Source: Neocallimastix lanati (nom. inval.) (Eukaryota > Neocallimastigomycota > Neocallimastigomycetes > Neocallimastigales > Neocallimastigaceae). From it: 64,000 nucleotides of DNA. Numbering within the stretch: the first letter of the stretch is position 1; every line of letters starts with the position of its first letter. Position numbers and translations under genes: made by a program. This document shows positions 9,302 to 20,431 of this stretch, piece after piece. The notes beneath the pieces were generated by a model. The model made no database searches. It saw only the letters and a list, made by a program, of their open reading frames with translations, and was not told the origin of the DNA. Where the stretch lies: contig JACVTC010000073.1 of the NCBI GenBank assembly GCA_016946835.1, positions 533,501 through 597,500 of the forward strand. Direction: 5' to 3'.

Positions 9302-12300
9302 ATGCCTCAGAAAAAGAATAAACGTGGAAGATTAAGAAAAAATAAGAAATATAGAGAATCAAAGTTACGATATAGTATTTATAATAATAGCAGTGATGAA
9401 GAAAATGAAAAAGAAAATATTCAAAACCATAACATTGTTAAGACTGAGTTTTATCCACTTATAAATGAAGGAATTATTTTAAACCATAAAAGGAATAATA
9501 GTGATATCCCTTTAAATATACTTAATAATAAAAATGAAAAAATGAGTGATTGTTCTTTAATATTTGATGATACTGGAAGAAATTTACAAAGTAAGAAAGG
9601 TGATATTAACTTCAAACCATCTATAAAAATAAATGCGAATGATAGAAAAAGTACACCTATTACACAGTTGAATGTTGATAGTTCGGATGATGATTTAACT
9701 GAAAATGATAGTTATAATGATAATTCTGTGACTGAGATATCTTCCTCATTAAATAATGAATACAGTAAATCAGTTTTTATAAATGATTGCAATTATCATT
9801 CTGATAGTGAAGCTCCATACTTGAATAAATATATATGGAATAATAAAAATATACAAAATATGAATAAAAATAATATAAAAAACCACTCGATAAATATTAA
9901 ATCAAACTTTTTATGGAATACTAATACTAATACTAATACTAATACTAATACTAATACTATTACTAATACTATTACTAATACTATTACTAATACTATTACT
10001 AATACTAATACTATTACTAATACTAATACTATTACTAATGCATCTACTACTACCAATACTACAATTACTAATAATAATAAAAATAATGATAATAATAATA
10101 ATGATGATGATGATGATGAATCGAATTTTCTTTGGGATAAAAATATCAATAATGTTAATAAAAATTACTATGATATAAATAACGAAAATAGTATTAAGCA
10201 AAAATTTTTATGGAATGAAAAAACTAATGAGAATGTATTAAAAGCAACATATTCTCCAATTATTAAAGGTGCTAGTATTAATAATAATGTAAAAATAATG
10301 AAAAATACAAATATTACTAATGGAAATAATAATATAATTACTAATAATAATTTGCTATGTAATATTGAAGAAATTAAAAGAAATAATTCCATATATAGAG
10401 GTGTAAATAAAATGATAAAAAAAAATAATTATTTCAATAATAATGATAATATTAAAAACAACAATAATAATGATATAAATCAATGGAATTGGAATGGAAA
10501 TTTATCTAATATTGAAAATGAATTTAACAATGGTTCAATACCAAACCCAATTTACAAGAGTAGTATTAAAAAATATAACTTACTTAATATAGATAAGGGC
10601 TATTTGTCGGATTCTGAACTTTCTAATAATAATAGTATTAAGGAATATAAATTTAATAAAAATGAAAGTACCATTGGTGATTTTACAGACATAATAAAAG
10701 AATCTTTAAAAAATATAATAAATGACAATAATAATTATGATGATTTGGATGATTTTATTTGGAGTAACAATAATAACAATAATATCAATATTAACAACAA
10801 CAATAATAATAGTAAAATAAATAATATTAATATAAATGATGAAAATAAATCAGATAAAATGAAAAACATATTTGAAATAATAAGAAGAAACAGTACAATA
10901 AGAAGATATAAAAAACCAATAAACTATAGTATGGATACAAAAAATATAAGTATGAATGATTTGAATGAAAGTAATTCATCAATTAAAGGTGAAGATGAAA
11001 ATAATACCATTAAAGACAATAGTGAATATGAATATGAGTATTCTTTTACAGGTAGACAGCTTAGTAAAATATTGCATGAATTAGATAAAATGCAAACAGA
11101 AAATTCGTACTTTAATTATTCTGGATGCATTCATGAATTTGTTAATAAAAATAAAAATAAAAATAAAAATAATAATAAACTAAATACAAATATTGCTGTG
11201 AATGATAGCTCATCTAAAGAAACTAATGGAATTGATAATATTGAAAATGAAGATAATAATAATACAGAGGAAATTAATTCATTAAATCTACACAGTATAT
11301 ATAATAATATTATAAATGATGATAAAATGAATAAAACTGATGATTTAAATGCCAATAAGACCTTTAAATGGAATATCAATAGTAGTAAAAATATTTATAA
11401 TAACAATAATAAGGAATTAATTATAAATAAAAATTCTTTTGTATGGAATAATGATAATAATACAAATAAACAAAATGTACTTAAAGGAAGTATCTATAAT
11501 ACAAATGAATATAAAATTATCGACAATAATAATGAAACTTTTAATATATTTAATAATAATATTTTTAAGGAATCAGAAACATTTATATGGAAAAATAATA
11601 ATAAAAGCAAAAATAACAACCAAAACAGTAATAATAATAATATTATTATTAATAACAATAATAATAATGATATTGATAATGATAAGAATAGAAATAATAA
11701 TAATAATAATAATAATAATAATAATAATAATAATAATAATAATAATAATAATAATAATAATAATAATATTAATATTGATATTAATAATAATAAAATTAAT
11801 ATAGCTGAAGTCAAAGACATAATAAATGAGACAAATTCACATATAAGGAATAATAATAATAATGCTAAAGAAGATAAAAATAATACAAATTATAATAATA
11901 ATAATATTAGCATTAATAATAATTCGGTTATTAATAATGAATTAATTGATGTTAAAAATGGAGGTATAAATAGTGTTTGCGCCTCATTTGTATGGAATAG
12001 TAATGATAATAGTAAAGATTATACTAATAATAATATTAAGAACAACAATAATAATAATAATAGTAATAATTGTAATAATACTATTATCAATAATGAAATA
12101 ATTGATTATATGAATGAAAGCACAATTAATAGATCACCTTCATTAGTATGGAATAATACTGAAGATAATTATAATAAAAACCTTCTCTTAAGTAATAAAA
12201 GTCATATATTAACGGATGAATCTTCATCATTTTTAAGAAATAATAATTCTAAAAATAATAATAAAATTTCAAATATTAATAAAGATAATGAAAATAATGA

Positions 12301-18300: not shown

Positions 18301-20431
18301 TAATAATAATAATAATATAAATTTAATCCTTAAATATAGGAATTAATATTAATAACGATTCAATAAGAGATATTAATAAAAAATGTTTAACAATAAAGAC
18401 AGAATTACATAATTTAAAGGAATTAATTAATTCAATAAATGACAATTCAGATATAAACACAATAAAAGAAAATAATAATAAATTAATAAATAATTCATCT
18501 ATGAATGAGAAACCAAAAAAAATTAATAAGACAATAAAGAAAAATAAAGAAATTTCAAAAAAAAATAAAGAAACAAATGAAATTTCAGGCTCTGTTAATA
18601 TACCAATTCCTTTAAATCTAAATATTAATTCTAAAGGTAGTGGGAATCCTGTTAATAATTTAATTAATATTACAAAAAAAATACCTCTAAAAATTAATAA
18701 ACTTTCCAATATAAATATTATGGATAACAAAAATGATGATAATAGTAATAATAATTTTAGTATTAATGATTTTAATAAAGCCACTGAAAATGATATAAAC
18801 AATAGCTTAATCAAACAAGATACAAAAAATGAAATTAATGATATAATTGAAGAAAATATAGATAAATGTATAAAAAATGGAGATAATATCAGTACAGTAG
18901 ATAATGTATTCCCTCCAACAACAGATGAAATTTTTAATAAATTTAATATGAGTGAAAATGAAATATCGAATGAATATAAAGGGTATATAGAAATTTTAAT
19001 GAAATTTAAATATAACATAAAAATATTTAAATATTAAATAATAAATATTTTATTTATATATAAATAATTTAGAAAAAAGAAAACAGCTATACTTATAATT
19101 AATAATGGTAATCCAAAAAGCCAAAATGAGTTTTCTGAATTTTTCAAATATATTTTTACATCTGTAAATTTACCATTTCAAAAATCCATAGGATCATGGA
19201 TAGCTTCAAAATATAGTAAAATATTTATGCTACAGGACCAAAATTGTTATAATAATCCAAGAATACTTAACAATTTATGGTCATTAAAGCAAAAGAAAAT
19301 ATTTGAATTATATATGAATAAAATATCGCCCTTAACAGGTAATTAATATTTTAAAAAGAAAATATAACATAAAGCATTCTATTTCTATGTTTATTTCAAA
19401 ACAATCAATTTTTTAAAAAAAATTATTGATAGATTTTTTTTTTTAAAATAGCACCTCATAAATTGTATTATGTAAAAAATAATGGAATTGGTAAAATACC
19501 ATCTACATTAAGAAAAATGATATCTAATAAAATATCTAAAGTAATAGTAATATTTAATAATCCACATTATTCTGATTCATATACATCACGTATTATGGCA
19601 GAAATACAAGAATATATTGAAGTATTTGATAAAGATAAAAAAATTGGATGGAAAATTGTTGATAATTGGGCGAATTATCCTGAATTGATTGAGGTAATTA
19701 GAAAAGTAAATAAAAGCATTTAAATTAAAGATTTTCATTAATATATATTTTATACATTATTTTTGTTATTTAGTGTTTCGTTAAAGGAATAAACGAAAAG
19801 ATTAGTACTTTTAGTGATAAAGATATCTCAAAAATATTTTTATTATTCTGTGCTCAATCAACATATTCATCATTTAATAATGAAAAGAATGGATATAAAA
19901 AGGAAGTAATATCAACAGTTCAAAGTATCATATCAAAATTAAGAAATGAATATTCATATACTATATGTTGGCAAACACCAAATGGTATAACAGAAAAACT
20001 TGGTCCAAATATTGGATCTTCATTAAAAAACATTAAAAATAATGGGTTTTCTCAGGTTTTATTAGTTCCATTAATATTTTCAATGGACCTTTTAGAAAGA
20101 ATGTTTATAAATGAAATTGAAACAGCTGAATCCTATTCTAAAAAGGTAAATGATAAATTAATAGATAAAATATAGTTTAATTATTTTTTATTAATTTTTA
20201 ATTTTTATAAAAATAAAATTTTTACAGATTGGAATTAATGAAATAAAGCAAATTGATTATTTATGCGGAAAATGGGGCTATATTAAATGTATTGCAAATA
20301 TGGTCTATCAAGCTTTGAATAATGAACCTATCTTAAAAGCTGGTGATAGAAAATATATTAATGTTTGCAAGAAATGTCTGAAAAAAAATTGTTCAAAACA
20401 TTATAAACTTATTACACAATCAAACCTTTAG
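9302..20431 (+). CDS. Giant Asn-rich tryptophan-motif protein with C-terminal ferrochelatase-like domain
   Basis: Proposed exons: 9302-13001, 13098-17813, 18340-18982, 19073-19338, 19452-19693, 19774-20145 and 20228-20431. All six joins keep phase and total 10,143 nt (3,380 residues). The N-terminus is basic. Residues 1 to about 2,950 are low-complexity, Asn/Lys/Glu-rich and carry about 70 motifs with one Trp each: FxWN-type in exon 1 (e.g. SSFVWNN) and NHVWKPE/DYIWK-type in exon 2. Residues about 3,022-3,380 match ferrochelatase (HemH/FECH) along the whole domain: KTAILIINNGNP, TAPHKLYYV, a WQ..LGP block, LLVPLIFS and a terminal CKKC....C. Gln3217 and Leu3295 replace the two catalytic His (human 263 and 341); Glu3297 (human 343) remains. 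It is probably not a ferrochelatase any more. Function is unknown; scaffold or metal/porphyrin sensing are guesses. The first acceptor could instead be at 13121 (also in phase). Two separate genes cannot be excluded without RNA data. Confidence 0.7.
9916..10060 (+). repeat. (AATACT)n hexamer array, codes Asn-Thr/Ile repeats
   Basis: Tandem AAT-ACT units with ATT-ACT variants, in frame in the giant gene. It gives alternating NT and IT dipeptides, an island of Thr in an otherwise Asn-rich region. Confidence 0.85.
11695..11766 (+). repeat. (AAT)n microsatellite coding poly-Asn
   Basis: About 23 pure AAT units in frame in exon 1 of the giant gene. Unlike the intronic array at 17.8 kb, flanking coding sequence is in the same frame, so this one should be translated. 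Confidence 0.85.
16496..16922 (+). repeat. 108-nt coding tandem repeat (36 residues, about 4 units)
   Basis: Units begin at 16496, 16604, 16712 and 16817. The third is 105 nt, missing one codon. Each unit encodes SSNNEESIINHVWKPE, then a variable N/D stretch, then DKDLIINNIWNNEEK. Every unit therefore has one WKPE motif and one WNNE motif. The high identity of adjacent units shows recent expansion of the Trp array by unequal exchange or slippage. Confidence 0.88.
17814..18339 (+). repeat. Perfect (AAT)~166 array inside a predicted intron
   Basis: About 500 bp of uninterrupted AAT from 17816 to about 18316. The array sits between a GTAATA donor at 17814 and a TATAG acceptor ending at 18339. 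Splicing joins G (17813) to GA (18340), giving Gly and restoring the frame used by all downstream exons. Reading through the array gives a poly-Asn tail and a stop at 18344-18346, and the downstream coding sequence is out of that frame. This favours an untranslated intronic microsatellite. Confidence 0.8.
19073..20431 (+). other. Ferrochelatase-like domain (four exons)
   Basis: Exons 19073-19338, 19452-19693, 19774-20145 and 20228-20431 encode about 360 residues. They align end to end with eukaryotic ferrochelatase, including PELIECFVKGINE against the FECH LLIQCFADHILKE region. Gln replaces the His of SAHS (reads FCAQS), Leu replaces the His of SDHIE (reads SMDLLE), and the FRY substrate segment is gone (VKNNG). 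The three C-terminal Cys keep the Cx2Cx4C spacing of the [2Fe-2S] ligands of animal FECH. The fourth ligand position, in the YPQYSCS segment, reads NPHYSDS and is Asp. Confidence 0.85.

Follow-up and report, generated by a model that had tools for sequence, protein, structure and literature searches.

The gene described here lies at positions 9302-20431 (+ strand) of a 64,000-nucleotide stretch of DNA from the gut fungus Neocallimastix lanati (assembly GCA_016946835.1, contig JACVTC010000073.1, positions 533,501 to 597,500; hereafter the window). It is very AT-rich, and its predicted product joins a very long array of tryptophan (Trp) motifs to a ferrochelatase-type domain. An Asn-rich chain of some 3,000 residues carrying Trp motifs, attached to a domain of this type that lacks the catalytic histidine, suggests that a heme-pathway enzyme has been turned into part of a scaffold. 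On balance, the evidence tips towards a single gene encoding a giant multivalent docking scaffold that ends in a non-catalytic pseudo-ferrochelatase. The exon model of the first-pass annotation was reproduced exactly: seven in-phase exons, joined through six GT-AG introns, encode 3,380 amino acids followed by one terminal stop (Table 1).

Evidence that the array and the domain belong to one gene

The outer borders of the gene are clear, since exon 1 has 18.7% GC but the 1 kb that precedes 9302 has 8.5%, and 20432-20697 downstream has 8.6%. The same difference is seen within the gene, where the seven exons range from 18.5 to 25.5% GC versus 5.6-12.5% for five introns (leaving out the AAT tract discussed below). 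At the first join (13001/13098), an intron is the natural reading, because the intervening 96 nt are T-rich (GC 7.3%, AT skew -0.21), have a negative codon score in all three frames, and contain the branch-point-like motif TACTAAT.

The first-pass annotation had argued for one gene from the agreement of phase at all six joins. One gene is still favored, on the basis of a coding signal that precedes the first available ATG, but phase is a weak argument at the join 17813/18340, where most of the intervening sequence is a perfect 501-bp (AAT)167 microsatellite (17815-18315). Phase agreement was rejected as proof at this join, given that seven GT dinucleotides occur from 17500 to 18346 and two of them fit the phase. 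The array frame crosses the tract as poly-asparagine (poly-Asn) and reaches a stop at 18346, and the chelatase frame opens at 18327, an overlap of 20 nt. Three readings of the tract are considered: a spliced intron, a translated segment followed by a change of frame (biological or due to a sequence error), or the end of a separate gene; under either of the first two readings the fusion is kept.

A better argument than phase is the coding signal just beyond the tract. In the chelatase frame, positions 18340-18500 (161 nt) have a codon score of 16.3 bits, compared with -78 or lower in the other frames, and none of 1,359 overlapping intergenic windows and none of 5,000 shuffles scored as high. 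The codon model was trained on two unrelated open reading frames (ORFs) of the window, with the same intergenic sequence training its non-coding side, and the coding signal is also supported by a second model, for which exons 1 and 2 were the training set. Exon 3 has in-frame ATG codons at 18501, 18720, and 18948, and none is present in the chelatase frame between 17811 and 18500. Because 18340-18500 scores as coding without any such ATG, the start codon for the chelatase part most likely lies within the array, ahead of the AAT tract. Exon 4 also needs an upstream exon, since no Met precedes the fold.

The arrangement that survives best as an alternative, although unlikely, consists of two neighboring genes: a Trp array ending in poly-Asn at the stop codon 18344-18346, and a pseudo-ferrochelatase starting in exon 3 (e.g., at ATG 18501). 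The array frame is indeed open through the whole AAT tract up to that stop, seven of the eight other AAT/ATT tracts of at least 30 bp in the window can be read through as poly-Asn (the remaining one, at 56027, is apparently intronic), and no clear branch site was seen toward the end of intron 2 on its 3' side. Openness of the 161 nt is by itself non-decisive and weaker than the codon score, as 10 of 1,216 intergenic windows (and 0.1% of 20,000 shuffles) are open over this length in a given frame. Two genes would, however, leave unexplained the coding score in the chelatase frame ahead of any in-frame ATG, and the 20-nt overlap leaves no room for a terminator and a promoter. The residue make-up of exon 3 is also nearly that of the array (Asn 24% versus 27%, Ile 16% versus 11%, Lys 14% versus 12%). 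An assembly mis-join at the microsatellite, placing an unrelated array beside the chelatase exons, is very improbable: microsatellites are classic mis-join sites and all 167 units of this one are perfect, but the sequence on its far side is Asn-rich and scores as coding from its first base, with an exon 3 composition close to that of exons 1 and 2. Taken together, the sequence features make it likely that the array and the chelatase part are one gene.

Microsatellites also lie between exons elsewhere in the window. The inter-exon stretches of a SNF2-type chromatin remodeler gene (34477-40100, + strand; Pfam SNF2 3.3e-39 for exon 35574-35939) hold T-rich microsatellites, and introns therefore seem able to hold long repeats.

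The tryptophan-motif array

Residues 1-3020 contain 72 Trp (a further 6 are in the ferrochelatase-like domain), and the array is real. The full core, [FYH]-[ILVTM]-W-[KN], surrounds 41 of the 72, compared with a mean of 0.4 and a maximum of 4 in 1,000 residue shuffles, for a pattern that was defined after inspecting the sequence. Considered position by position, F, Y, or H is present at -2 in 57/72, I, L, V, M, or T at -1 in 57/72, and K or N at +1 in 63/72. Matches to the core in all six frames of the window number 48, with 41 in the strand and span of this gene and 7 elsewhere, all of them single.

The motifs fall into two consecutive classes. The first, ahead of residue 1760, comprises 30 Trp with mostly [FY] at -2 and a +1 residue that is mostly Asn, and the second comprises the 42 Trp that follow, with mostly [HY] at -2 and Lys at +1, giving [HY]-[ILV]-W-K, often as ESIINHVWKPE. 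Between Trp 2307 and Trp 2522, each of the 12 spacings measures 17 or 18 residues, a regularity whose source is a series of 108-bp tandem units; outside this section the spacing varies from 2 to 203 residues. Among five second-class tandem copies chosen by eye, of the 110 codon pairs in the core (-7 to +3), 32 differ synonymously and 8 non-synonymously, and of the 50 in the linker (+4 to +8), 5 differ synonymously and 35 non-synonymously (core versus linker, Fisher p 1e-9, with codon pairs that are non-independent).

Single-Trp motifs in disordered chains are known to bind pockets of partner proteins, as in the Argonaute hooks of GW182 and the W-acidic cargo motifs of kinesin. The core observed here, [FYH]-[ILV]-W-[KN], differs from these in being neither G-W, W-G, nor W-acidic. 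The chances that the array consists of docking motifs appear evenly balanced. A contrasting possibility, which is quite unlikely, is that the array is a folded or filament-forming repeat, with the 18-residue section stacking as beta strands and poly-Asn driving a prion-like assembly. The uniform spacing between Trp 2307 and 2522 fits such a structure, as does a beta-rich single-sequence AlphaFold2 model of the 257-residue repeat section 2280-2536; however, the mean pLDDT of that model is only 60, the remaining four models score between 56 and 29, and the irregular spacing in the rest of the array does not fit stacking. Because the single-sequence model is beta-rich, though of low confidence, the label "disordered" is not proved for residues 2280-2536.

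Searches with parts of the array did not recover relatives. Pfam gave no family for exons 1, 2, or 3 at E values up to 1, and a PDB search with exon 2 gave no match up to the same threshold. Scans for relatives in two non-fungal collections found 3 pattern stretches (viral_contigs) and 20 pattern stretches (genome_contigs), none of them a relative, and a first look at literature titles gave none that fits a Trp motif array.

The ferrochelatase-like domain

Residues 3021-3380 match the Pfam Ferrochelatase family PF00762 with 118.5 bits (cut-off 27, E 4e-34) over profile positions 1-316 of 317, and match human FECH with a best E value of 9.6e-38 over query residues 1-350 of 360. The whole domain is colinear with human FECH, with 90 identities among 344 aligned residues (26%) and a C-x2-C-x4-C tail common to both; matched as single exons, exon 6 reaches E 7e-13 and exon 4 E 0.09. 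The HemH/FECH-like fold proposed by the first-pass annotation thus stands as homology, but the loss of catalytic residues had been overlooked. An AlphaFold2 model of exon 6 alone (mean pLDDT 54.6) was too low in confidence for use, and the score against the NCBIfam hemH equivalog TIGR00109 (105.3 bits) is below the cut-off of 124.6.

Residues were called by transferring the FECH alignment to human numbering, and calls near gaps are uncertain. The essential H263 is replaced by Gln (residue 3217), and H341, its hydrogen-bond partner, by Leu. Further replacements compared with human FECH are R164 by Asn, Y191 by Asn, W310 by Lys, and H231 by Pro, with E347 lost and Asn where M76 would be (a position that is Met in two of three matched chains and His in the chain used for numbering). 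N75, Y276, W301, F337, D340, E343, and E351 are retained. Three of the four cysteine ligands of the human [2Fe-2S] cluster (C196, C403, C406, and C411) are also retained, C196 alone being changed, to Asp. In regions where the alignment is near gaps, R115 is replaced by Tyr, S130 by Pro, and Y123 by Asp, all three being presumed porphyrin contacts.

As a ferrochelatase homologue without the catalytic His, the domain fits the description of a pseudoferrochelatase (FeCL). An ordinary ferrochelatase is very unlikely with Gln at H263 and Leu at H341, and the domain descends from ferrochelatase but has very probably lost the activity. The least credible explanation is that the enzyme still works, with an unusual active site and a long extension. 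The full-length homology and the retained E343, D340, and N75 could be cited for it, but it was rejected, given these changes, the missed hemH cut-off, and the reported inactivity of every H263 variant studied to date, H263C included (PMC9133952). A dead ferrochelatase is plausible in this organism, since the heme pathway of N. lanati is reported to have appeared incomplete and heme to be essential for growth (PMC8561657).

Comparison with known systems and proposed explanation

A close parallel is found in nematodes, where FeCL proteins likewise are ferrochelatase homologues without the catalytic His or active site in animals unable to make heme, as outlined in two reports (PMC9133952, PMC5633385); the elegans homologue lacking the catalytic His is termed a pseudoferrochelatase in the first of these (PMC9133952). 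The present gene differs in being fungal, and the likeness lies in the shared loss of the His. We know of no Trp array or 3,000-residue extension in a nematode FeCL, nor of any established role for pseudo-ferrochelatases in organisms unable to make heme. Ferrochelatase domains also occur within longer proteins in the form of cyanobacterial ferrochelatases with a CAB tail and of a ChdC fusion, but those additions are short or enzymatic, and the cited portion of the source mentions no motif array (PMC8529089). A fusion of a Trp array with a ferrochelatase was not found described in the open-licence literature (titles and beginnings of abstracts), a search with gut-fungal sequence databases outside its scope. 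Homologues from gut fungi may already have been catalogued, as a survey of ferrochelatase orthologues is stated to span 324 fungal genomes, Neocallimastigomycota included (PMC8966179).

In the proposed explanation, the Trp cores would act as short linear motifs, each docking a copy of the same peptide-binding partner, and the resulting multivalency might be accompanied by condensation, possibly driven by poly-Asn. Asn-rich tracts would not be out of place in this lineage, in that homopolymers are reported to be most abundant in Neocallimastigomycota, with the share of Asn among the largest (PMC11878562). The ferrochelatase-like domain would have been kept as a non-catalytic binding module once the lineage ceased heme synthesis, and its candidate ligands are a tetrapyrrole, iron, a three-Cys iron-sulfur center, or another protein. 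The scaffold would then tether or regulate the docked partner depending on the ligand of the dead chelatase, which could act as a sensor or as an anchor. A more specific version, in which the protein is a heme or porphyrin sensor whose dead pocket, having lost the ability to insert iron, binds an imported tetrapyrrole or its own Trp motifs and thereby switches a multivalent condensate open or closed, is very improbable.

Several observations weigh against the docking-scaffold explanation. The join 17813/18340 is the weak point of the gene model, 31 of the 72 Trp fail the strict core, and we know of no partner domain for the Trp motif. The class B sister copies, which lie between the five copies compared above, do not show the core-linker contrast: in three of the six listed, 24 core codon pairs include 5 synonymous and 6 non-synonymous differences, and 21 linker pairs include 6 of each kind. 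The codon comparisons therefore support selection on the core for one set of copies but not for all. Within the domain, the changes at the presumed porphyrin contacts mean that tetrapyrrole binding may have been lost as well, and a normal [2Fe-2S] cluster is doubtful because C196 is Asp. In addition, heme- and iron-binding proteins are reported to be under-represented among fungal low-complexity proteins (PMC11878562).

If the docking-scaffold explanation is true, the gene would show how an anaerobic fungus may keep and reuse the enzyme of the last step of heme synthesis after its original purpose has been lost. The fusion to a Trp array also provides an experimental handle, as the partner of the motif would be retrievable with a peptide and the ligand of the domain is directly testable.

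Gene structure and neighboring features

Table 1. Parts of the array-chelatase gene, in coordinates of the window.
Feature	Positions	Strand	Description
Exon 1	9302-13001	+	Basic N-terminus, Asn-rich low-complexity chain, and first-class Trp motifs (mostly [FY]-x-W-N); open frame
Poly-Asn tract	11693-11767	+	Inside exon 1
Intron 1	13002-13097	+	GTAACT...TTATTAG; T-rich; branch-point-like TACTAAT
Exon 2	13098-17813	+	Remainder of the Trp-motif array; second motif class from about residue 1760
AAT tract plus short tail	17814-18339	+	Read as intron 2 (GTAATA...ATATAG), or as poly-Asn translated up to a frame change or to stop 18346
Exon 3	18340-18982	+	Asn/Ile/Lys-rich linker; coding score from the first base
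Intron 3	18983-19072	+	GC 5.6%; negative codon score in every frame; GT-AG, in phase
Exon 4	19073-19338	+	Start of ferrochelatase-like domain (amino acids 3021-3108); aligns to human FECH from residue 66
Exon 5	19452-19693	+	Ferrochelatase-like domain; R164 to N, Y191 to N, C196 to D
Exon 6	19774-20145	+	Ferrochelatase-like domain; H263 to Q, W310 to K, H341 to L, E343 retained
Exon 7	20228-20431	+	End of domain; C-x2-C-x4-C tail aligned to human C403, C406, and C411; stop 20429-20431

Poly-Asn is also encoded on the opposite strand upstream of the gene, where a 929-amino-acid ORF (2-2788, - strand) contains several poly-Asn tracts, the longest of 42 codons (126 bp). This ORF was grouped with RNA-binding ORFs spanning 2-3553, and an RRM domain (Pfam RRM_1 2.8e-10) is encoded at 2792-3553 (- strand). 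Downstream, ORFs at 20698-22961 (- strand) lie tail to tail with the array-chelatase gene and contain repeated PGP motifs (TPGPSDY, TPGPASY), which resemble PG-rich repeats known from the sperm-tail proteins of flagellated cells; of the PGP ORFs, 22440-22961 alone was run against Pfam, and it matched nothing. Together with the base composition and the Asn tracts, these ORFs are in keeping with Neocallimastigomycota. Farther along the + strand are an exon of a Ras-family small GTPase (23652-23948; Pfam Ras 2.9e-12) and, at 59276-64000, an open frame of 1,575 amino acids that is cut by the end of the window and appears to belong to an NBAS-like tether protein (Nbas_N 7.4e-17, Sec39 2.1e-51).

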